Shown: in pieces, positions 33,532 through 45,777 of the stretch | How positions within the stretch are numbered: position 1 is the first letter of the stretch | Layout of the letters: each line of letters starts with the position of its first letter | Assembly: GCF_037081775.1 (NCBI RefSeq) | Contig: NZ_JBAMHQ010000001.1 | Span: forward strand, 372,001 to 436,000 | From: Haladaptatus sp. ZSTT2 | GTDB taxonomy: Archaea; Halobacteriota; Halobacteria; Halobacteriales; Halococcaceae | Direction: 5' to 3' | Length of the DNA stretch: 64,000 bases | Position numbers and translations under genes: made by a program | Notes under the pieces: model-generated | What the model was told of the DNA's origin: nothing | Database searches by the model: none | The model's input: only the letters and a program-made list of their open reading frames with translations

Positions 33532-34065
33532 ATGTCATCAATTGAGCTGACCCCGAGCCAGAAACGCATCCTCTCTGCCCTGATTAACCTCCATCGCCAG
33601 ACCGAGGACGCAGTAAAGGGCGAAGACATCGCGGCGGAAGTCGACCGGAATCCGGGCACAATTCGCAACCAGATGCAGAGCCTAAAAGCCCTTCAGTTGG
33701 TCGAAGGTGTCCCCGGCCCGAAAGGCGGCTATAAGCCAACCGCAAACGCCTACGAGGCCCTCGAAATCCAGGACATGGACCAGCCCGCAGAGGTGCCGCT
33801 GTTCCACAACGGCGAGTCCGTAGACGGCGCGAACGTCACCCAAATCAACCTTTCGAGCGTCCACCATCCAGAACTCTGTCGCGCAGAGATTTCGCTTCGC
33901 GGCTCCATCCGCGAGTTCCACGAAGGCGACGAGGTCATCGTTGGCCCGACGCCCCTCTCGAAACTCGTCATCGAAGGCGTCGTCGACGGCAAAGACGACA
34001 CGGACAACGTCCTCATCCTGACAATCGACGACATGAAAGCGCCCGTCGGCGAGCCAAAGAAGTAA
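33532..34065 (+). CDS. Winged-helix regulator with C-terminal beta domain
   Basis: 177 residues. The first ~75 form a winged helix (LTPSQKRILSALINLHRQ, VDRNPGTIRNQMQSLKALQL, GPKGGYKPTANAYEAL). The rest (about 95-177) is predicted beta-rich (VTQINLSSVHHPELCRAEISLRGSIREFHEGDEVIV) and may bind a ligand. Similar haloarchaeal proteins are often labelled Rrf2-like, but no Fe-S cysteine cluster is visible (one Cys only). TATA-like CTTTAAGG lies 23 nt before the ATG. Confidence 0.72.
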   Translation: MSSIELTPSQKRILSALINLHRQTEDAVKGEDIAAEVDRNPGTIRNQMQSLKALQLVEGVPGPKGGYKPTANAYEALEIQDMDQPAEVPLFHNGESVDGANVTQINLSSVHHPELCRAEISLRGSIREFHEGDEVIVGPTPLSKLVIEGVVDGKDDTDNVLILTIDDMKAPVGEPKK

Positions 34066-34201
34066 CCTTCCCACTCTCATTTCAGTTTCTTCGCGGCGAG
34101 TGGCGACACGCTGCTAATTGGTGGCAATACTCAGTGAAATCGGCCGCGGACGGCGTGACGATTCCAAAGCCTTTGTATCTCAGGACTTCGGAGTTGCCAC
34201 C

Positions 34202-35359
34202 ATGACCGAGAATATCGTGGTGCTCGGCGCGGGCTACGCCGGCGCAGCCGCGATTCAGAGCCTAGAAGCCGAGGTTGATAACGCAGATATTACCTGGATT
34301 TCGAAAGAGGACTACCACCTCGTCCTCCACGAAGTCCATCGTTGCATCCGCGATCCGAGCGTCCGGGACAAGATTTCGCTCCCCATCGCGGACATCAAAT
34401 CCCCGAGCACGCGCTTCATCAAAGCGGCAGTCGAGTCCGTCGATACCGACGACCGCGAAATCGATCTCGACGATGGCTCGACCGTCGATTACGACTACCT
34501 CGTCGTCGGACTCGGCTCGAAGACGGCCTACTACGGGATCCCGGGCTTAGAAGAGAACTCCCTTACGCTCAAAGGCCTCGACGACGCCCTCGAAATCCAC
34601 AACCAAGTGAAAGACGCCGCCCGCGAGGCCTCCCGCAACGACCCCGCCAAAATCGTCATCGGCGGCGCTGGGCTGTCGGGCATCCAGACGGCGGGTGAAC
34701 TCGCGGAGTTCCGCGACATGCACCGCGCCCCACTCGAGATTTACCTCGTCGAGGCGATGGAGGAAATCTTCCCCGGGCAAGACCCAGAAATCCAAGGTGC
34801 CCTCCGCAAGCGCCTCCTCGAAGCCGACATCAACATCCTCACGAACGACCCAATCACCGAAGCCGCAGAGGACACCATCTATTTCGACGAGGGAGAACCC
34901 CTCGAGTACGATGTCTTCGTCTGGACCGGCGGCATCACGGGACAGGACGCCCTCGAAGAGGCGAACGTCGAGAAGAACCACAACCGCGTGAACGCAGACG
35001 CGACGTTCCAGACCTCGGACGAGCGCGTGTTCGCCCTCGGTGACTCGGCGATCGTCGACCAGCTCAACTCAGAGCGCCCCGCCCCGCCAACGGCACAGGC
35101 TGCGTGGCAGGCTGGCGGCGTCATCGGCGAGAACGTCGCTCGCGCCATGAACGGGCAGGCGCTCACCTCGTGGAGCTACAAGGACAAGGGAACAGTCGTC
35201 TCCGTCGGCGACGACGCCGTTGCCCACAACGTCATGATGGTGCCAATCGGCACGTTCGGCGGCCCTGCGGCAAAAGTGCTGAAGAAGTCTATCGCTACCC
35301 GGTGGATTGCTGACGTGACCTCGGTGGGTCGCGCCGTGTCCGCCTGGGGCGACATGTAG
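34202..35359 (+). CDS. Type II NADH dehydrogenase-like flavoprotein
   Basis: 385 residues. VVLGAGYAGAAAIQSL (about 5-20) binds FAD, DYLVVGLGSKTAYYGIPG follows, IVIGGAGLSGIQTAGEL is the second (NADH) Rossmann motif, and VFALGDSAIV closes the FAD site. The family passes electrons from NADH to membrane quinone without pumping protons. ATG 34202 fits the family start; a TATA-like CTTTGTAT sits 24 nt upstream. The 136-nt gap before it holds nothing else visible. Confidence 0.85.
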   Translation: MTENIVVLGAGYAGAAAIQSLEAEVDNADITWISKEDYHLVLHEVHRCIRDPSVRDKISLPIADIKSPSTRFIKAAVESVDTDDREIDLDDGSTVDYDYLVVGLGSKTAYYGIPGLEENSLTLKGLDDALEIHNQVKDAAREASRNDPAKIVIGGAGLSGIQTAGELAEFRDMHRAPLEIYLVEAMEEIFPGQDPEIQGALRKRLLEADINILTNDPITEAAEDTIYFDEGEPLEYDVFVWTGGITGQDALEEANVEKNHNRVNADATFQTSDERVFALGDSAIVDQLNSERPAPPTAQAAWQAGGVIGENVARAMNGQALTSWSYKDKGTVVSVGDDAVAHNVMMVPIGTFGGPAAKVLKKSIATRWIADVTSVGRAVSAWGDM

Positions 35360-36653: not shown

Positions 36654-37469
36654 TTATTCCAGCGGAAGGCCCGGATGCCACTGGTCGGCTCCGGCCTCTT
36701 TCGCGGCTTCGTCCATCTTCGCTAAGAGTTTCACCGCGAGCGACGCCGTCTCCGCTGCACGGCCTTCGCCTTCGGTGCGGAACTCTCCTGTCACTCGGTT
36801 CGCGTAAACGGTACAGACCGCCCCGGCGCGAAGCCCGTAGATGTTGGCGATGGTCATGATGGCAGAGGCCTCCATCTCGATGTTCTTCACGTTCGCGTCT
36901 TTGAGTTCCGCTATCATTTCTTCTGCCCCGCGGGCTTCGAAGCCTTCGAACCCGGCGCGACCCTGCCCGGCGTAGAAGCTGTCTGCGGACATCGTAATTC
37001 CCGTGTGGTAGTCGTAGTCGAGGCGTTCTGCGGCCGCAATCAAGGCCATGACGACCTGCTGGTCTGCGACGGCGGGGTAGTCCTCGCGGACGTATTCGGA
37101 ACTCGTGCCTTCTTGGCGGACGCCGCCCGTCGTAATCACGAGGTCGCCAACGTCCATCTCGGGCTGGATTGCACCACACGAGCCGACGCGGATGAACGTG
37201 TCCACGCCGATGCGCGCGAGTTCTTCGACGGCGATGGCGGCAGAGGGACTGCCGATACCCGTAGAGGTGACACTGATTGGTGCGCCGTCGTAGCTGCCCG
37301 TCGCGGTGCGATATTCGCGGTGTGCGCCGCGAATCTCGAAGTCGTCCCAGAACTGGGTAATCTTCTCGACGCGGTCTGGGTCGCCGGGAAGGAGCACGGC
37401 GTTTGCAACGTCGTCAGAGCCGACGCCGAGGTGGTACTGTACGTCGTCGTTTGGGTCTTCTGCGTCCAT
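36654..37469 (-). CDS. udp: Uridine phosphorylase
   Basis: 271 residues of the nucleoside phosphorylase family. YHLGVGSDDVANAVLLPGDPDRV opens it; SVTSTGIGSPSAAIAVEEL and FIRVGSCGAIQ are phosphate and ribose contacts; NIEMEASAIMTIA holds the active-site Glu-Met-Glu. It splits uridine (or another pyrimidine nucleoside) with phosphate to the base and ribose-1-phosphate. It overlaps cdd by one base and is likely translated with it. Confidence 0.9.
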   Translation of the reverse strand: MDAEDPNDDVQYHLGVGSDDVANAVLLPGDPDRVEKITQFWDDFEIRGAHREYRTATGSYDGAPISVTSTGIGSPSAAIAVEELARIGVDTFIRVGSCGAIQPEMDVGDLVITTGGVRQEGTSSEYVREDYPAVADQQVVMALIAAAERLDYDYHTGITMSADSFYAGQGRAGFEGFEARGAEEMIAELKDANVKNIEMEASAIMTIANIYGLRAGAVCTVYANRVTGEFRTEGEGRAAETASLAVKLLAKMDEAAKEAGADQWHPGLPLE

Positions 37470-37855
37470 TATTTGAGGTGGGATTCGGTGATGGTGTTCG
37501 GGAGCAGTTCACCGAGGGTGTACTCGGTCACGTCTTCGCCCTCATCACAGAGCACGGTGAGGTTGGGGTCACAGAACTCAGAGAGTGTCTGGCGACACAT
37601 GCCACAGGGCGTGACGCCGTCGCGTCGTCCGGAGCTGACGGCGATACGGACGAAGTCGCGGTGGCCGTTTTTCACGGCTTCTGCGATGGCGACTTCCTCT
37701 GCATGCAGCGAGTTCGAGTAGTTCGCGTTCTCCAGATTACAGCCGGTGAACACGGTTCCGTCCGCAGTTTCTACGGCCGCACCCACGCGATAGTCGGAGT
37801 ACGGCACGTGCGCCGCAGACTGAATCTCGCGGGCGGCTTCGATGAGGGCGTCCAT
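37469..37855 (-). CDS. cdd: Cytidine deaminase
   Basis: 128 residues, the length of small tetrameric cytidine deaminases. Zinc ligands are H51 (HAE, E53 catalytic), C84 and C87 (PCGMC). The first ligand is His where most short enzymes have Cys. It turns cytidine to uridine, which the next gene product, uridine phosphorylase, would then split. A TATA-like TATTTTTACC on the minus strand (37875-37884) lies about 20 nt before the ATG. Confidence 0.92.
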   Translation of the reverse strand: MDALIEAAREIQSAAHVPYSDYRVGAAVETADGTVFTGCNLENANYSNSLHAEEVAIAEAVKNGHRDFVRIAVSSGRRDGVTPCGMCRQTLSEFCDPNLTVLCDEGEDVTEYTLGELLPNTITESHLK

Positions 37856-38002
37856 GCGGGAACTACGAGGAGGCGGTAAAAATAGCCACCGTGATGGGCT
37901 GAAACGTGTCGGGTGCGAAAAGTGATTGAACAGTCAGGAAACCGTGAAACTGAAAGAATATTGATGTACCGTAGTGCCCTCTAGGGGGTGGGGTAGAATC
38001 CA

Positions 38003-38758
38003 ATGAATGGAATCGAGGGGAAGGTAGCGATTGTGACGGGAGCGAGTTCGGGGATTGGCCGCGCCACAGCGATGCGGTTTGCCGAAGAAGGCGCGAACGT
38101 CGTCGTCGGGGATGTTCTTGAAGACGGCGGGCAAGAGACGGTCGATATGATAACCGACGCGGGCGGCGAGGCGACGTTTGTCCGGGTCGATGTGACCAAC
38201 GACGCGGACGTGAAAGCGCTCGTTGAGACGACGCTCGATGTGTACGGCGGCCTTGATTTCGCCCACAACAACGCCGGTATCGAAGGCAAGATGTCACAAC
38301 TCGCAGACACCCCGGACGACGACTGGGCGCGCGTCATCGACGTGAACCTGACCGGCGTCTGGCGCTGCATGAAACACGAGATTCCGGTGATGATTGAACG
38401 CGGTGGCGGAGCCATCGTCAACACCTCGTCGGTCGCCGGGCTGATGGCCGCCGGGGGCGGGCCATACGTGGCGAGCAAACACGGTATCATCGGCCTCACG
38501 CGGGTTGCAGCCGTCGAATACGCCAAACAGGGCATCCGCGTGAACGCGGTCTGTCCGGGCGTCGTTGACACGCCAATGGTAAGCCGGGCCGCAGAAGACA
38601 CGCCGGAACTCATCGACCAGTTCGTCGCCATGCAACCGCTCGGGCGGATGGCAGAGCCAAACGAAATTGCGAGCGCTGTCGTGTTCCTCTGTAGCGACGA
38701 CGCCTCGTTCATCACGGCGCATCCGCTCCCGGTCGATGGTGGCTTGCTGTCTATCTGA
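38003..38758 (+). CDS. Short-chain dehydrogenase/reductase
   Basis: 251 residues. VTGASSGIGRATAMRFAEEG (about 10-29) binds NAD(P); NNAG is at about 91-94; the catalytic Ser is in VNTSSVAG, and YVASK gives Tyr and Lys. It resembles glucose 1-dehydrogenase and similar enzymes. The substrate is not evident; its place between cdd and the nucleoside transporter suggests sugar released from nucleosides, as inference. The 147-nt gap before it contains CCCTCTAGGG (37977-37986), related to the CTCTAG sites at 35549-35608. Confidence 0.85.
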   Translation: MNGIEGKVAIVTGASSGIGRATAMRFAEEGANVVVGDVLEDGGQETVDMITDAGGEATFVRVDVTNDADVKALVETTLDVYGGLDFAHNNAGIEGKMSQLADTPDDDWARVIDVNLTGVWRCMKHEIPVMIERGGGAIVNTSSVAGLMAAGGGPYVASKHGIIGLTRVAAVEYAKQGIRVNAVCPGVVDTPMVSRAAEDTPELIDQFVAMQPLGRMAEPNEIASAVVFLCSDDASFITAHPLPVDGGLLSI

Positions 38759-38774
38759 GAAAAGGGGTTTCGCG

Positions 38775-39848
38775 TTAGTCTTCGCCCGAGTCGTAGTGCT
38801 CACCAGCCGCGGCTGGCAGGCGCGTGCGGCCGACGAGCGCGAGAACTACGATGACGAGGACGAACGGAATCATCTGGATGATGGATTTCGGGATGCCGAT
38901 ACCGAGAATCTGCAGGCGGAACTGTAGGGCTTCGAGCGTGGCGAACAGCAGCGAAGCAAGGAACGTCCCGACTGGGTTGTAGTTCCCGAACAGGTAGGCG
39001 GTAATGGCGATGAAGCCACGACCGTTGACGATGGTCGCGCCGCCGCCGGTGAACTTCCCGACGAGCACGAGCGAGAGTGCCGCGCCGCCGATGCCGGTGA
39101 GTGCTCCGGAGAGCAGGACGCTCCCGTAGCGCACGCGGCGCACGTCAATGCCCGCGGTGTCGAGTGCCTTCGGATTCTCACCGCTCGCGCGAATCCACTG
39201 CCCGAACGGCGTGTGGTAGAGGAAGTACCACGAGGCGGGCACGGCGATGAGCAGCATGTACACCGTCGGGTTCGCGTCGAACAGGATTGGCCCGACAACG
39301 GGAATCTGTGAGAGGCCCGGAATCGCAACCGTACTCAGGGTGTTCACGCTCGGGGAGTCGAACTGGCTGAACAGGACTTGGGCGGCGAACGGGCCGAGGC
39401 CGAGTGCAATCAGCCAGACGGCGAGGCCCGCGATAATCTGGTCTGCCTCTAAGTCGATGGTGACCACGGCAAACAGCAGGGAGAGCAGGATGCTCGTGAA
39501 GACGCCGATGGCGAAGCCGACCCACACCATGGTCTCCGAGGCCGCACCGGGGTCGTTCGTCAGGAGGGCGATACTCGCCGCGCCCGCGAACGCGGAGACG
39601 ATGAGCAGACCTTCGAGGCCGATGTTGATGACGCCCGACTTCTCTGCGAACAGGCCGCCAAGGGCGGCGAATGCGATTGGAACCGCGGTGCGGAGCGCGG
39701 CAGACGCGAGGTTGCCGTCGATGAGGGCAAACACGTCGCCCGCCGTCTCTGGGTCGGTGACGGCAAGCGCGAGGACGGCGACCACTGCGAGGACGCCAGC
39801 GCCGAGTGCGACTTTGCCGCGTTTGTCGAGTTGTTGGTATCGGTTCAT
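38775..39848 (-). CDS. Nucleoside-type ABC transporter permease (NupQ-like)
   Basis: 357 residues with about ten membrane segments. GLFAEKSGVINIGLEGLLIVSAFAG (about 64-88) is the hallmark of the second permease of BMP/Nup importers. TPFGQWIRASGENPKALDTAGIDV lies in the cytoplasmic coupling region. It overlaps the preceding permease gene by 4 nt and is the last gene of the operon. Substrate: nucleosides, by comparison to the family and neighbours. Confidence 0.88.
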   Translation of the reverse strand: MNRYQQLDKRGKVALGAGVLAVVAVLALAVTDPETAGDVFALIDGNLASAALRTAVPIAFAALGGLFAEKSGVINIGLEGLLIVSAFAGAASIALLTNDPGAASETMVWVGFAIGVFTSILLSLLFAVVTIDLEADQIIAGLAVWLIALGLGPFAAQVLFSQFDSPSVNTLSTVAIPGLSQIPVVGPILFDANPTVYMLLIAVPASWYFLYHTPFGQWIRASGENPKALDTAGIDVRRVRYGSVLLSGALTGIGGAALSLVLVGKFTGGGATIVNGRGFIAITAYLFGNYNPVGTFLASLLFATLEALQFRLQILGIGIPKSIIQMIPFVLVIVVLALVGRTRLPAAAGEHYDSGED

Positions 39849-41032
39849 TGGTCTTCACCGCCGTCGGTTGCGACGGCCGTCTTCGAGCCGACGTTGAATC
39901 GCGTGCCGAGCATGCGGAAGAACTCCGGCATGGCGACGAACAGGATGATGAGGCCACGAAGGACGCCCACCAACTGTGAGGGCACGTCAAGGTTGAAGTC
40001 GATTGCAACGCGCCCGACTTTGAGCATGCCGAACAGGAACGCCGCAAAGATGGCTCCCACCGGGTTGTTCCCGGCGAGGATGGAGACGGTGATGCCGTCG
40101 AACCCGAACGCGGGAGCCGTTGGCATCCAGCGACCGGTCACCATCAGGATGTACACTGCCCCGGCGATGCCGCCGAGCGCACCCGACAGGCCCATCGAAA
40201 TGACGGTCATCTTCTTCGCGCTCACGCCGCTGTAGGCGGCCGCGCCTTCCTGTATCCCGCTGATGCGCAGGTCGTAGCCAAACGCCGTGCGTGCGAGGAA
40301 CCACGTCATCGCGACGACGAGGGTGAGTGCAATCGCAAGCGCGACGAGCGAGAAGTCACCCGGGAATACCGAGGAGTCGAGCATCGCGTAGTCCGGAATC
40401 CGCGCCGTCTGCGTGTTGTTCGTGCTGTTCGGGTCTTTGAACCACGTCGAGACGATGAGCAGCGAGAGGAACGTCGCGATGAAGTTCAACATGATGGTCG
40501 TGATGACCTCGTTTGCCTCTGCGTAGGCTTTGAGCGCACCCGGAATCGCGCCATAGAGGCCGCCGATGAGCGCGCCGACGAACAGCCCGAGTGGAATCAG
40601 GATGAGGCCACCAGCGAGTCCGCCGGGAAGCGACGGGGCGAGCAGCGGGACGGTGATAGCCGTCGCCATCGAACCCATGACGAACTGCCCCTGCGTCCCG
40701 ATGTTGAACAGGCCAGCGCGGAACGCGAGTGCGACCGACAGCCCGGTGAGCAGGAGAATCGTCGTCTGCTGGAGCGTCTCACCGAACACACCCGCATTCG
40801 AGAACGGCCCGGTGAACAGTTCGAGATACACCGAGACGGGGTTGTAACACGAGTAGCCCACGCCCGGGAAGAACAGGACTGGTTGTGAACACTCTGCGAC
40901 GAAACCGGCGGCGAGCACAACGATGCCGCCGACGAAAATCGACGCGATGAGCGCGGCGATGCTGATGACGATGCGTTCTATGTTCGAGGCGGTCGTCATT
41001 CGCGCGACGGCGGCTTCGAACTGCTGTTTCAC
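39845..41032 (-). CDS. Nucleoside-type ABC transporter permease (NupP-like)
   Basis: 395 residues. AGLFNIGTQGQFVMGSMA (about 105-122) and GYDLRISGIQEGAAAYSGV (about 270-290) are the family signatures. About ten membrane segments are visible, with an N-terminal cytoplasmic helix. It forms the channel with the 357-residue permease. It overlaps the ATPase gene and the following permease gene by 4 nt each. Confidence 0.88.
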   Translation of the reverse strand: MKQQFEAAVARMTTASNIERIVISIAALIASIFVGGIVVLAAGFVAECSQPVLFFPGVGYSCYNPVSVYLELFTGPFSNAGVFGETLQQTTILLLTGLSVALAFRAGLFNIGTQGQFVMGSMATAITVPLLAPSLPGGLAGGLILIPLGLFVGALIGGLYGAIPGALKAYAEANEVITTIMLNFIATFLSLLIVSTWFKDPNSTNNTQTARIPDYAMLDSSVFPGDFSLVALAIALTLVVAMTWFLARTAFGYDLRISGIQEGAAAYSGVSAKKMTVISMGLSGALGGIAGAVYILMVTGRWMPTAPAFGFDGITVSILAGNNPVGAIFAAFLFGMLKVGRVAIDFNLDVPSQLVGVLRGLIILFVAMPEFFRMLGTRFNVGSKTAVATDGGEDQ

Positions 41033-42576
41033 GAGCCATCACCTCCGTCGAATCCGGCGGGGTACTCTCCGGCCATGAGCAAGCCGAGTTCTTCTTCGGT
41101 CACGTCTTCGGGGTCTACTATCGCCATAAATTCGCCGTCGTGCATCACCGCAAGCCGGTCTGAGAGCTGGGTGACTTCTTCGAGTTTCGAGGAGACGAGT
41201 AAGACAGCAGTGCCCTCGTTTCTGAGGTCGATGAGCTGGTCGTGGATGAACTCAATCGACCCCACGTCCACGCCGCGGGTCGGATGGGCGGCGACGACGA
41301 AGTCGGGATTTCGCTTGAACTCACGACCGACGATGAACTTCTGTTGGTTCCCGCCCGAGAGCGACTCTGCGGTCGCGCGCTTGTCCGGCGGTCGCACGTC
41401 GTACTCGTCGATGATTTCTGCGGCGTGATTCTCGGTGTAGTCCCAGTCGATACGCACGCCGCTCGCAAACGGCGCTGTGTGCTGGTTACCAAGGGCGGCG
41501 TTCTGGATGAGGTCGTAGTCCATGACGACCCCGCTTTCTTGCCGGTCTTCGGGGATGTAGGACATCCCGCGCTCGATGCGCTCTCTGCGTGGGAGGTCGG
41601 TGATGGTCTCGCCCTGATAGACGATGTCGCCCGTATCAATCGACGACAGCCCGGTGACGGCGTTGATGAGTTCTGACTGGCCGTTGCCGTCGACGCCTGC
41701 AATGCCAAACACCTCTCCCGACTTCACTTCGAAGGCTAAATCGGTGAGTTTCGCCACGCCGCGGTCGTCGCGCACGCTCACCGACTCGACGCCGAGCACC
41801 TGCTCGCCGGGGTCTGCGGCCGTTTTATCGACTTCGAGCATGACCTCGCGGCCGACCATCAGCTCTGCGAGTTCTTCACGGCTCGTGGTGTTCGCATCGA
41901 CGCTGCCGACGTTCTTGCCGTCGCGGAGAACGGTGATGTCGTCTGCGGCTTCCATCGCCTCGCCCAACTTGTGCGAGATGAAGATGATGGTCTTTCCTTG
42001 GTCGGTCAGTTCGTCGAACACGGTGAACAACTCCTCGACCTCTTGGGGGGTGAGGACGGCTGTTGGCTCGTCTAGGATGAGGATGTCTGCGCCACGGTAG
42101 AGGGCTTTCAGAATCTCGACGCGCTGTTGTTCACCGACGCTCACCGATTCGAGTGGCGCGGTGGGGTTTACGTCGAATCCGTATCTGTCTGCGAGTTCGG
42201 TGACTTCTGCGATGGCCTTCTTCCGGTCCATCGACAGGCCGAACCACTTTCGTGGCTCGTTCCCGAGGACGACGTTGTCTGCGACGGTCATCGGGTCGAC
42301 CAGCATGAAGTGCTGGTGAATCATCCCGATGCCGGTCTTGATGGCGTCGCGGGGGGAGGAAAAGTCGCGGGGAGTGCCGTTTATGTTGACGGTGCCCTCG
42401 TTTGGTTTGTACAGTCCGTAGAGGACGTTCATCAGGGTCGTCTTTCCGGCACCGTTCTCACCGAGCAGCGCGTGGACGCTTCCTTGCTCGACGGTCAGGT
42501 CGACATTGTCGTTGGCAACTACGCCCGGAAACCGCTTCGTAATCCCGGCTAGTCGTACGGCTGGTGTCTCACTCAT
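41029..42576 (-). CDS. Nucleoside-type ABC transporter ATPase (two domains, NupO-like)
   Basis: 515 residues with two fused ATPase domains. The first has Walker A GENGAGKTT (39-47). The second has a degenerate P-loop, GVDGNGQSELINAV, as usual in this family, and signature LSGGNQQKF. ATP hydrolysis here powers both permeases. The gene follows the binding-protein gene by 65 nt; that gap has a weak GC hairpin (around 42598-42615) that may limit readthrough and favour the binding protein. Confidence 0.9.
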   Translation of the reverse strand: MSETPAVRLAGITKRFPGVVANDNVDLTVEQGSVHALLGENGAGKTTLMNVLYGLYKPNEGTVNINGTPRDFSSPRDAIKTGIGMIHQHFMLVDPMTVADNVVLGNEPRKWFGLSMDRKKAIAEVTELADRYGFDVNPTAPLESVSVGEQQRVEILKALYRGADILILDEPTAVLTPQEVEELFTVFDELTDQGKTIIFISHKLGEAMEAADDITVLRDGKNVGSVDANTTSREELAELMVGREVMLEVDKTAADPGEQVLGVESVSVRDDRGVAKLTDLAFEVKSGEVFGIAGVDGNGQSELINAVTGLSSIDTGDIVYQGETITDLPRRERIERGMSYIPEDRQESGVVMDYDLIQNAALGNQHTAPFASGVRIDWDYTENHAAEIIDEYDVRPPDKRATAESLSGGNQQKFIVGREFKRNPDFVVAAHPTRGVDVGSIEFIHDQLIDLRNEGTAVLLVSSKLEEVTQLSDRLAVMHDGEFMAIVDPEDVTEEELGLLMAGEYPAGFDGGDGS

Positions 42577-42641
42577 TGAAATAGTTCCGCTAGTTTGCCC
42601 GAGGCTTCGGCGGGTTCAGGCAAGTATTGAACGGTTTCCGA

Positions 42642-43757
42642 TTACAGTTCGGACGGAACCGTAATCTCGCCGTCTACGATCTGCTGTTTGCTCTTTTCGA
42701 GTTTGCTCTTTACGTCCTCGGGGATGGCGCTGCCGAGTTCTTGGCCGTACACTGCCTCGACACCGCCTTCGTCGAGACCGAGACGGTTTTCGACGCCACC
42801 TTCGAAGTTGCCGTTGACGACGGCTTCGACCGACTCGTACACGGCGAGGTCGACGTGCTTGACCATACTCGCGAGGATGACGTTCTTGTATTCGGCGTTG
42901 GATTTCGACTGGTCTGCGTCGACACCCATGGCGAAGCGCCCTTTCTGGCGGGCGGCCTGGAAGACACCGAGGCCGGTGCCACCTGCGGCGTGATAGACGA
43001 TGTCCGCGCCGTTTTCGTACATCGTGAGTGCGATTTCCTTGCCCTTTGCGGGGTCGTTGAACGCGCCTGCGTAGGCGGACTGGACTTCGATGCTGTCGTC
43101 GTGGTGGGCGACACCTGCTTTGAAGCCAGCGAGGAACTTTTCGATGAGCGGAATCTCGAAGCCACCGACGAAGCCAACGGACTTCTCGTCTGGCTTCGTG
43201 GAACTCTCGCCTGCACTGAACTCTTGGGTCGTGAGCAGTGCCGTGAGGTAGCCAATCTGGAACGAGCCTTGGTGCTCTTTGAAGCGGTAGTTTGCGACGT
43301 TGCCGAGCATCTCACCGTCTTCGGTCTGCGCGGTTTCGTCGATAAGGACGAAACTCTGGTCTGGGAACTCCTGTGCGTTTGCGACCATGCCGTCTTTCTG
43401 GACGAAGCCGACGCCCGTCACGAGGTCGTAGTTTGGGCTGTCGGACTGCGCGAACCGCTTCTGGAGGTCGCCAACCTGTGAGGCTTCCTCTGGCTCTGCG
43501 TTCTCGTACTCGACGTTGTACTCTTCTGCGGCTTGTTTGACGCCCTGGTGGGCCATGTCGTTGAAGGACTTGTCACCGAGACCGCCGGTGGCGTAGACCA
43601 TACCCACGTTGACTGGGTCTTCGCCGCCGTCGCCACCGTCGCCGCCGTCGGTGGATTCGCTGTCAGAGGTTGAGTTTGTGTTGGTGGTACAACCGGCGAG
43701 GCCAGCGACACCGAGGGCACTCGCTGCTTTGAGGAATCGTCTGCGGTCGACAGGCAT
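42642..43757 (-). CDS. BMP-family nucleoside-binding lipoprotein
   Basis: 371 residues. The N terminus RRRFLKAASALGVAGLAGC has a twin-arginine signal and a lipobox with Cys23, followed by a Ser/Thr/Asp-rich linker, the usual haloarchaeal lipoprotein layout. The BMP domain begins at VNVGMVYATGGLGDKSFNDM and has YAGAFNDPAKGKEIAL and YHAAGGTGLGVFQAA. BMP proteins capture nucleosides outside the cell. The gene heads the transporter operon with its own promoter (43783-43788). Confidence 0.9.
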   Translation of the reverse strand: MPVDRRRFLKAASALGVAGLAGCTTNTNSTSDSESTDGGDGGDGGEDPVNVGMVYATGGLGDKSFNDMAHQGVKQAAEEYNVEYENAEPEEASQVGDLQKRFAQSDSPNYDLVTGVGFVQKDGMVANAQEFPDQSFVLIDETAQTEDGEMLGNVANYRFKEHQGSFQIGYLTALLTTQEFSAGESSTKPDEKSVGFVGGFEIPLIEKFLAGFKAGVAHHDDSIEVQSAYAGAFNDPAKGKEIALTMYENGADIVYHAAGGTGLGVFQAARQKGRFAMGVDADQSKSNAEYKNVILASMVKHVDLAVYESVEAVVNGNFEGGVENRLGLDEGGVEAVYGQELGSAIPEDVKSKLEKSKQQIVDGEITVPSEL

Positions 43758-43769
43758 GTCTCACAAAAG

Positions 43770-43798
43770 AAACGAAGAACTGTATAAATCGTTCGTTT
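43770..43798 (-). promoter_or_regulatory. bmp promoter with operator-like inverted repeat
   Basis: A TATA element (TTTATA on the minus strand, 43783-43788) lies 25 nt before the bmp ATG. It is flanked by a perfect 7-bp inverted repeat, AAACGAA (43770-43776) and TTCGTTT (43792-43798), centred almost exactly on the TATA. A protein bound there would block the TATA-binding protein, so repression is the simplest reading. Confidence 0.5.
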
Positions 43799-43819
43799 TA
43801 GTTTACAGTATGTGCTAGT

Positions 43820-45172
43820 TTAGCGCTCCACAACGGCTGTTTTTACAATTTCGATGACTGTGGAAACAAGGGTATCGACGTCCTCACTTTCTGCATACAC
43901 TCTGACATACGGCTCGGTTCCGCTTGGGCGAACGAGCACCCACGACCCGTCTTCGCGTTCGAGGCGAACGCCGTACTCAGTTGACACAGCGGCGTCGGGG
44001 AACGCGGCGGGCAGCGCCGTTTCGAGTTCGGCCATCGCGGCTTCCTTCCGGTCGTCGGGGCACTCGGTGCTGACTTTGCGATACGGCCGCTCGGTGACCG
44101 GCTCTCTGAGCGCGTTGAGACCGTGGGCAGCGACGAGTCGGGCGAACACCGCGGCGCTCGCGGGCCCGTCAATCCAGCCGCCGAACTGCGTGTGGATGTG
44201 TTTCCACGGCTCTGCGGCGAACACGACGCTCGTCCCCTCTGTGCCGGTTTCGAGCGCGGTTTCGATGCCTTCGTGGAGCGCGCCAAGCCGGACGCGTTCG
44301 ACGCGCCCACCGGCTTCACGGACGCGCTCGTCGATTCGCGCAGACGCATTCGGCGTCGTCACGACGACGGGGTCTTCGGCCGTGCTCGTGCGCACGTAGT
44401 GTTCTGCGAAGATGGCGACGATGGTGTCTTCGTGAACCACATCGCCGTTTCCATCGACGAACACCGAGCGGTCTGCGTCGCCGTCGTGGCCGATGCCGAA
44501 GGCGAAATCGCCGTCTGCGAGGAACGCCCGCAGGTCTGCGAGCGTCTCGGGCGTTGGCTTGCTCTCGCGGCCAGGGAAGTGGCCGTCTACGTTGCCGTTC
44601 AACGTGACGACGTGTGCGCCAAGTTCGCGGAGCACCTGTGGCGTGGCGAGCGCGGCCATTCCGTTGCCACAGTCGACGACGACTTTGAGACCGTCGAGCG
44701 GCGCGCCCATCGTCGTGGCGTACTCACAGACGGCCTTGCGGTAGGCGGAGAGCGGTTCGCTTGTGCTCGCGGCCCCCCACTCGTCCCAGTCGATGGGTGA
44801 TTGCCCGTCTGCGACGCGCTGTTCGATGCGGCGCTCTGCGTCGCGGTCGTATTCGACGCCATCACAAAAGAGCTTGAGCCCGTTGTCCTGCGGTGGGTTG
44901 TGGCTCGCCGTAATCATCACGCCGTGGCGACCCTGTGCAGCAAACGCAAGCGCTGGGGTCGGCAGTTGTCCGGCGCGATAGACGCTCACACCGGCGCTTT
45001 CGAGTCCGGCTTCGAGGGCGGCGGCGAGCGCAGGGCCAGTCTCGCGCCCGTCACACCCGACGACGAACTCGTCGTGTTCGTCACCGGCGGCTCTCCCAAC
45101 GGCGAGCGCCAGCGACGGCGTTACTCGGTCGCGGGCACTTCCGCGGATACCCGCTGTTCCGAACAGTTCCAT
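43820..45172 (-). CDS. Phosphohexomutase-family protein (GlmM/PMM-like)
   Basis: 450 residues. LFGTAGIRG opens the protein, MITASHNPPQDNG (about 90-102) has the phosphoserine, GHDGDADRSVFVD (about 230-242) binds magnesium, and RPSGTEPYVRVYAE near the C terminus holds the substrate phosphate. Members act on mannose, glucose, glucosamine or, in some archaea, pentose phosphates. Sitting beside nucleoside genes, a phosphopentomutase role (ribose-1-P to ribose-5-P) is plausible but unproved. AATAAATA on the minus strand (around 45193-45202) lies about 22 nt before the ATG and may be its own promoter. Confidence 0.85.
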   Translation of the reverse strand: MELFGTAGIRGSARDRVTPSLALAVGRAAGDEHDEFVVGCDGRETGPALAAALEAGLESAGVSVYRAGQLPTPALAFAAQGRHGVMITASHNPPQDNGLKLFCDGVEYDRDAERRIEQRVADGQSPIDWDEWGAASTSEPLSAYRKAVCEYATTMGAPLDGLKVVVDCGNGMAALATPQVLRELGAHVVTLNGNVDGHFPGRESKPTPETLADLRAFLADGDFAFGIGHDGDADRSVFVDGNGDVVHEDTIVAIFAEHYVRTSTAEDPVVVTTPNASARIDERVREAGGRVERVRLGALHEGIETALETGTEGTSVVFAAEPWKHIHTQFGGWIDGPASAAVFARLVAAHGLNALREPVTERPYRKVSTECPDDRKEAAMAELETALPAAFPDAAVSTEYGVRLEREDGSWVLVRPSGTEPYVRVYAESEDVDTLVSTVIEIVKTAVVER

Positions 45173-45219: not shown

Positions 45220-45681
45220 TCAGAGTTCGACGCCGCTCGGGATGAGGCTGTGCTGGTGGAGCAACTCACCCGTGTGGCTGTAGACGAGGAAGGTCGCCTT
45301 CTCGAACGCTACGGCGCCAGTTGGGCCGTCCAGATGGAGTGTGTAGTGTTTTTCGTCGTCTGCGAGGTTCCCATAGCGCCGTGCGACACGGATAAACCGG
45401 AGGACATCGCGCGTTTCGAGATTCACTTCTAAGATGAACTCGCCGTTGGTTCGATTGGTCACCGCGAGGACGCCTTTGCTGCCGTCTGCCTCGATGGGAC
45501 GTTTCAGTCGGAACGAAACGTCAACGTCGGCTGCGGCGAGCGGTGTTCCATCGGCTTGGTTGAGCCAGCCGCTGAACTTCTCTCGAGGGCCGGTGTAAGA
45601 GATCGAAAGCGTTGGTTGCTGGGGCTCTGAGGTCTCGTCGTCGAGGTTTGTGAAAGACACCCCGAAATAATCGCGCCTCAT
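45220..45681 (-). CDS. Conserved-looking haloarchaeal protein, function unknown
   Basis: 153 residues, acidic, without membrane segments, Cys pairs or a signal peptide. The middle part is beta-rich with SISYTGPREKFSGWLNQ, DVSFRLKRPIEADGS, GEFILEVNLETRDVLRFIRVA and HYTLHLDGPTG, suggestive of an immunoglobulin-like or carboxypeptidase-regulatory-like sandwich. ATG 45681 was chosen over TTG 45693. No family is recognised. Confidence 0.55.
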   Translation of the reverse strand: MRRDYFGVSFTNLDDETSEPQQPTLSISYTGPREKFSGWLNQADGTPLAAADVDVSFRLKRPIEADGSKGVLAVTNRTNGEFILEVNLETRDVLRFIRVARRYGNLADDEKHYTLHLDGPTGAVAFEKATFLVYSHTGELLHQHSLIPSGVEL

Positions 45682-45777
45682 TGCGTGTGTCAATGTGGCG
45701 CATGGGTATGAACGTACCGTTGTGTCAGACGCGCGTCTTGCGGTACTTTTTACTCACTGACAGTGGCGATGTGAGTT

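Follow-up and report, generated by a model that had tools for sequence, protein, structure and literature searches.

A conserved haloarchaeal gene cluster predicted to import and break down pyrimidine nucleosides through a phosphopentomutase of the phosphohexomutase superfamily

Bacterial nucleoside catabolism, encoded by deo, cdd and udp genes, combines a deaminase, a pyrimidine phosphorylase, a pentomutase and deoxyribose-phosphate aldolase (DERA). The genome of the haloarchaeon Haladaptatus sp. ZSTT2 contains, within a stretch of 64,000 nucleotides (contig NZ_JBAMHQ010000001.1, positions 372,001 to 436,000; the whole stretch is referred to as the window), a cluster of eight genes at window positions 36654-45172 that appears to follow the same deaminase-phosphorylase-pentomutase-DERA logic, with the bacterial pentomutase DeoB replaced by an unrelated mutase. 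The cluster is quite likely a haloarchaeal operon for the import and breakdown of pyrimidine nucleosides, in which a putative phosphopentomutase would lead to DERA and salvage as exits. Haloarchaea differ from the bacterial system in that DeoB (COG1015; TIGR01696) exceeded its cut-off in none of the 116 haloarchaeal genomes compared here (no match in Haladaptatus sp. ZSTT2 and three weak matches elsewhere) and in that DERA is rarely encoded near the mutase.

The archaeal enzyme most relevant to the mutase is the phosphopentomutase of Thermococcus kodakarensis (PPMTk; TK1777, PDB 9ix8), for which the introduction of its description reports an activity of 210 umol/min/mg on deoxyribose-1-phosphate (dR1P) and none of significance with hexose-1-phosphates; the abstract gives its reaction as that between ribose-1-phosphate (R1P) and ribose-5-phosphate (R5P) (PMC11641776). 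Its third motif reads AAEP where the hexomutase has GEEN (section 2.12), and docking places Glu249 and Asp250 at R5P (PMC11641776). The non-carboxylating pentose bisphosphate pathway of haloarchaea also starts with nucleoside phosphorolysis to R1P and continues with an R1P kinase and ribose-1,5-bisphosphate (R15P) isomerase (Sato and others, PMC9700705); at a separate locus, the present genome carries genes resembling those for its Urdpase1, its kinase and its R15P isomerase. In that 2022 article, Urdpase1 prefers guanosine, the substrate of Urdpase2 is left open, and 19 haloarchaeal species give no clue to their nucleoside degradation route; a word search of its main text returned none of 'mutase', 'deoxyribose' and 'transketolase'.

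For the brine-pool archaeal lineage MSBL1, a route from deoxyribose sugars to glyceraldehyde-3-phosphate via phosphopentomutase/ribokinase and DERA, as considered here, has been proposed from genomes (PMC4725937). However, MSBL1 is another lineage known from single-cell genomes, and the passage concerned names neither a gene neighbourhood nor a mutase type. The 2024 genome paper on Halobacterium salinarum notes DERA with a ribokinase beside it and states that annotated uridine phosphorylases function as guanosine phosphorylase (PMC11665356); the word 'phosphopentomutase' does not occur in it, and neither the H. salinarum passage nor that on MSBL1 names a haloarchaeal phosphopentomutase. Likewise, no haloarchaeal assignment of this enzyme appeared in titles or abstract beginnings among the matches listed, and a search covering few subscription papers found none pairing Haloferax volcanii with phosphopentomutase.

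All eight genes were recovered by open reading frame and profile checks, confirming the cluster as described in an earlier note made from the DNA letters alone. Seven genes occupy the minus strand in the order listed below and adjoin each other with overlaps of 1-4 bases or gaps of 62-65 bases, except where a short-chain dehydrogenase/reductase (SDR) gene on the opposite strand separates the mutase, receptor, ATPase and two permease genes from those for cytidine deaminase (cdd) and phosphorylase (udp). ABC denotes ATP-binding cassette.

43820-45172, minus strand: phosphohexomutase-family enzyme, predicted phosphopentomutase of the COG1109 type (best PDB match 9ix8; motifs ASHNP, DGDADR, FAAEPWK and RPSGTEP; tree; structure model)
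42642-43757, minus strand: BMP/PnrA-like lipoprotein, probable nucleoside receptor (PF02608, 203 bits)
41029-42576, minus strand: two-domain ABC transporter ATPase (PF00005, two stretches)
39845-41032, minus strand: ABC permease 1, BPD_transp_2 (PF02653; 4-base overlap with the ATPase gene)
38775-39848, minus strand: ABC permease 2, BPD_transp_2 (PF02653; 4-base overlap with the permease 1 gene)
37469-37855, minus strand: cytidine deaminase, tetrameric type (TIGR01354, 143.4 bits, cut-off 113.65)
36654-37469, minus strand: predicted pyrimidine (uridine) phosphorylase 'Urdpase2' with FYAGQGR loop (TIGR01718, 261.1 bits, below the cut-off of 280.3)
38003-38758, plus strand: SDR-family oxidoreductase (PRK06172, 353.4 bits, above the cut-off of 336)

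Sequence comparisons indicate that the mutase very probably belongs with the phosphopentomutases of T. kodakarensis type. Its best match among solved proteins was PPMTk (287.8 bits), followed by the T. kodakarensis PGM/PMM (186.0 bits) and 1wqa (180.5 bits). The window mutase and PPMTk have in common the fold, the AAEP(WK) and RPSGTEP motifs, a Glu-Asp pair and the clade; the window protein differs in being 41% identical, in its conserved nucleoside transporter/cdd/udp neighbourhood and in being known here from sequence. It carries the catalytic serine in TASHNP, the metal loop DGDADR and the phosphate loop RPSGTEP, and its orthologues retain ASHNP in all 116 genomes, exact DGDADR in 104 and exact RPSGTEP in 115. 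Motif III reads FAAEPWK in place of the GEPSG/GEENG/GEESG-type sugar loop; each of the 116 genomes has an orthologue with EPWK, and the residue ahead of this motif is Ala or Gly in the rows read (AGEP, for example, in the orthologues of genomes G002 and G050). Glu248-Asp249 is the counterpart of PPMTk Glu249/Asp250, and the pair is found in 115 of the 116 orthologues. Ala-Asp takes its place in G002 (locus L192) only. Ten genomes gave 27 paralogue matches, and none of the 21 that were read contains EPWK; the loops caught by pattern among them are GEPSG/GEPSC, GEGNG and GEESGG. Among 80 named loci, 44 relatives were read, and EPWK was found in three of these, two of them haloarchaeal and one from Thermococcus.

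In a tree of 110 rows, calculated by a quick method with no bootstrap and including 45 of the 116 haloarchaeal orthologues (one per genus), PPMTk, a relative from Thermococcus and the EPWK proteins sampled from haloarchaea fell on one side of a branch with a Shimodaira-Hasegawa-like approximate likelihood ratio test (SH-aLRT) value of 99, and all 21 paralogues fell outside this group; rows L249 (a partial sequence) and L212 (without an open frame spanning the match) were dropped. In a search across the phylum, 23 of 24 Halobacteria gave the orthologue at 605 bits or higher (the match in G006 is split), and scores in 124 other genomes reached at most 383.9 bits. The AlphaFold model of the mutase, with a mean predicted local distance difference test (pLDDT) score of 94.8, had 9ix8 as its top solved fold in both Foldseek and VIA-align searches; as the fold is common to all relatives, the model and fold search add little beyond the sequence. 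Sequence, active-site motif, tree and gene context thus lend strong support to the idea, already put forward in the earlier note, that this enzyme is an archaeal phosphopentomutase, and the model fits it.

The gene context was examined by fetching about 20 kb around the mutase in the 116 genomes and comparing these regions with the window proteins; a few stretches that run into contig ends measure 10-13 kb, where neighbours can be missed. BMP receptor and ATPase genes and/or cdd/udp are located on the strand of the mutase within about 10 kb in 100 of the 116 genomes, spanning 36 of 45 genera and eight of nine families, which argues for more than chance clustering. The transporter genes (receptor and ATPase) are among these same-strand neighbours in 54 genomes, cdd and/or udp in 66 and both in 20 (families f1, f2, f4 and f7). 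Neighbourhoods with the transporter alone (34 genomes) all belong to family f5, and those with cdd/udp alone (46 genomes) to families f2, f3, f4, f8 and f9. Nine chosen neighbourhood gaps revealed no common theme among their genes. Within 1.5-kb flanks, a nucleoside gene was present at 32 of 37 mutase loci and at none of 22 hexomutase-paralogue loci; two of these loci are broader regions of the present genome, in which two of the paralogues recur and one further paralogue is included.

We assign the phosphorylase of the cluster to Urdpase2 because the other homologue in this genome is encoded beside R15P isomerase, the position described for Urdpase1 in PMC9700705. The 19 solved proteins that match it best all bear the name uridine phosphorylase. 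The FYAGQGR loop aligns with FYPGQER of 1k3f, in which it contains Gln166 and Arg168 by count, and we take this Gln-x-Arg loop of uridine phosphorylases to be the part that binds uracil. FYxGQxR occurs in 59 of 59 Urdpase2 proteins in the fetched regions and in none of 11 Urdpase1 proteins (loci L077-L087, with the 32% identical third homologue L088 set aside). Given the loop shared with solved uridine phosphorylases (3o6v, 1k3f and others) and this contrast, Urdpase2, which was found in 114 of the 116 genomes, is predicted to be a pyrimidine enzyme, although these solved proteins match the window protein at 184-185 bits and its score is under the NCBIfam equivalog cut-off.

With a PF02608 receptor, two BPD_transp_2 permeases and a double ATPase, the transporter has the composition of the BMP/PnrA type. 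The solved relatives of the receptor include BMP-family lipoproteins such as 2fqw tmpC, also known as PnrA, and the receptor probably binds nucleosides. The family matches (PF02608 and TIGR01354), together with the phosphorylase comparison, support the view of the earlier note that the cluster serves nucleoside uptake and breakdown. In G024 (locus L098), two tandem BMP receptor genes lie about 0.1-2.4 kb past the mutase, and gaps of similar size between receptor and ATPase in G008, G009, G015 and G108 suggest tandem BMP genes there as well.

From the gene content, motifs, conserved neighbourhood and presence or absence of partner genes, all read directly from the genomes, we infer the activities, transport substrate and direction of the following pathway. 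The BMP-type ABC transporter would import nucleosides, cytidine deaminase would convert (deoxy)cytidine to (deoxy)uridine, and Urdpase2 would cleave the latter phosphorolytically to uracil and (deoxy)ribose-1-phosphate. The mutase, as a phosphopentomutase recruited from the phosphohexomutase superfamily, would then shift the phosphate from C1 to C5. DERA, encoded elsewhere, would split deoxyribose-5-phosphate into glyceraldehyde-3-phosphate and acetaldehyde. As no transketolase was found in this genome, R5P would enter phosphoribosyl pyrophosphate (PRPP) synthesis and salvage, and the separate ribose-1,5-bisphosphate locus would offer an alternative exit for R1P.

DERA (TIGR00126) exceeded its cut-off in 115 of the 116 genomes, including that of Haladaptatus sp. 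ZSTT2 (G000:C1:1080878-1081480). G002 (L192), the only genome without it, also lacks Urdpase2 and same-strand nucleoside neighbours of the mutase. Transketolase (TIGR00232) exceeded its cut-off in none of the 116 genomes and had no match in this one; matches at E <= 0.001 were obtained in 38, and the enzyme is convincing in four (G021, G050, G079 and G089), each with two strong adjacent pieces. Together with the lack of DeoB, this distribution makes the cleavage of deoxyribose-5-phosphate by DERA, combined with salvage of R5P, the likeliest exit, rather than the classical pentose phosphate pathway, which we judge unlikely for this genome. The earlier note had the cluster reaching pentose phosphate, and this stands as far as R5P; beyond that point no transketolase match is available here, and DERA is present.

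There is some chance, although we would not favour it, that the main job of the phosphopentomutase is the conversion of R1P to R5P for PRPP and nucleotide salvage, with the link to DERA and deoxyribose being secondary. R15P isomerase (TIGR00511) exceeded its cut-off in 74 genomes but not in the other 42, where the mutase would be the R1P exit among the genes searched, and the reaction named in the abstract on PPMTk (PMC11641776) is that of the ribose phosphates. Three of these 42 genomes (G021, G050 and G089) have a convincing transketolase; in the remaining 39, the phosphopentomutase would be the only R1P exit among the genes searched. However, the near-universal retention of DERA, the rarity of a convincing transketolase, which is needed to bring R5P into central carbon metabolism, and the R15P isomerase available for ribose in the 74 genomes all speak against salvage as the main function. 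If the cells of the 39 genomes burn ribose, R5P would have to be degraded through a pathway so far undescribed for archaea; that the 'no clue' species of PMC9700705 degrade nucleosides via phosphopentomutase and an undescribed cleavage of pentose-5-phosphate is a speculative and rather improbable extension of this idea.

The separate ribose locus of this genome (L205, G000:C1:1077173-1081507) comprises Urdpase1, a PfkB-type gene resembling R1P kinase (named by eye from its sequence), a membrane protein and R15P isomerase, with DERA head to head with the isomerase gene. Among the 74 genomes with the isomerase, DERA and R15P isomerase are no more than 2.5 kb apart in 25 and no more than 10 kb apart in 31; the closer spacing suggests that the routes for deoxyribose and ribose may be regulated together.

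Several observations weigh against an operon for pyrimidine-nucleoside breakdown ending in DERA, as preferred here. The best NCBIfam models for the transporter are those of a putative B6 transporter, at scores below cut-off, and 16 of the 116 mutases have no nucleoside neighbour on their strand; for one of these, that of G042, the transporter is encoded on the other strand, and no common theme was apparent around 12 of them among the matches listed. Genome G021 lacks Urdpase2, yet keeps the mutase and DERA. DERA itself lies about 0.66 Mb from the operon in this genome, and in 114 of the 116 genomes it is not encoded within the stretch fetched around the mutase; in the other two (G050 and G079) it is on the opposite strand, and its proximity to the mutase was dropped as a general rule. 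Furthermore, TIGR00232 is a bacterial model, so a divergent archaeal transketolase could be missed. For the mutase, the identity to PPMTk given above, a small VIA-align margin (Z 51.4 for 9ix8 and 50.1 for the hexomutase 9du5) and a best NCBIfam name of archaeal GlmM (TIGR03990, 376.1 bits, below the cut-off of 439) belong to the same side of the balance, as does the fact that the connection of the Glu-Asp pair with pentose binding comes from docking (PMC11641776).

The GlmM name, the fold and the Pfam family would also fit a hexose or glucosamine phosphate mutase of the usual kind (PGM/PMM/GlmM) whose place beside nucleoside genes is a coincidence. We consider this very unlikely, as the mutase stays under the TIGR03990 cut-off and the paralogues with GEPSG, GEGNG or GEESGG loops cluster apart, at loci without nucleoside neighbours; a purely hexose role was rejected on paralogue loops, tree and gene context.

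Equally doubtful is an operation of the phosphopentomutase and DERA in the making direction, in which DERA would join acetaldehyde and glyceraldehyde-3-phosphate and the mutase would provide dR1P for deoxynucleosides. The reactions are reversible, the introduction of PMC11641776 describes this direction, and the H. salinarum genome paper reads DERA in this way (PMC11665356); however, the linkage with an importer and cytidine deaminase fits uptake and breakdown.

Slightly less probable still is the oxidative route suggested in the earlier note, in which the SDR would oxidize the released sugar: the SDR gene sits inside the cluster here and in G070, but was found near the mutase in three of the 116 genomes, never on the same strand, and its match is to a broad SDR model; its membership in the system was rejected on conservation. 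In G032 (locus L134), a genome of another family, a 59%-identical SDR gene separates cdd from udp about 1.8-2.7 kb past the mutase, again on the opposite strand, and is possibly an independent insertion.

The mutase is the upstream-most gene of the described run. A gene for a DUF5793 protein (45220-45693, minus strand) directly precedes it on the same strand at a distance of 47 bases; this gene was found near the mutase in 22 of the 116 genomes, always on the same strand. Past the other end of the cluster, the window contains a regulator-like and an NADH dehydrogenase-like gene (33532-35359, plus strand; named by eye); the former is matched near the mutase in 22 of the 116 genomes and the latter in 33, never on the strand of the mutase.

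Growth of Haloferax volcanii on extracellular DNA has been studied (PMC3929857; its main text contains no word starting with 'nucleoside' or 'deoxyribose'), and a deoxyribose route would be useful for such growth. The preferred interpretation of the cluster as a pyrimidine-nucleoside import and breakdown operon retains the mutase proposal of the earlier note, abandons its dehydrogenase branch and moves the end point to DERA and salvage, so that the note is partly supported overall. It would give a name to a gene for which GlmM is the closest assignment by automatic models, and would tie the use of extracellular DNA by haloarchaea to their carbon metabolism. The cluster would thereby fill a missing step in the haloarchaeal use of RNA and DNA as food: the mutase, present in all genomes compared and often located beside Urdpase2, together with the almost equally widespread DERA, offers a testable answer for the deoxyribose half and leaves the ribose half as a defined gap.

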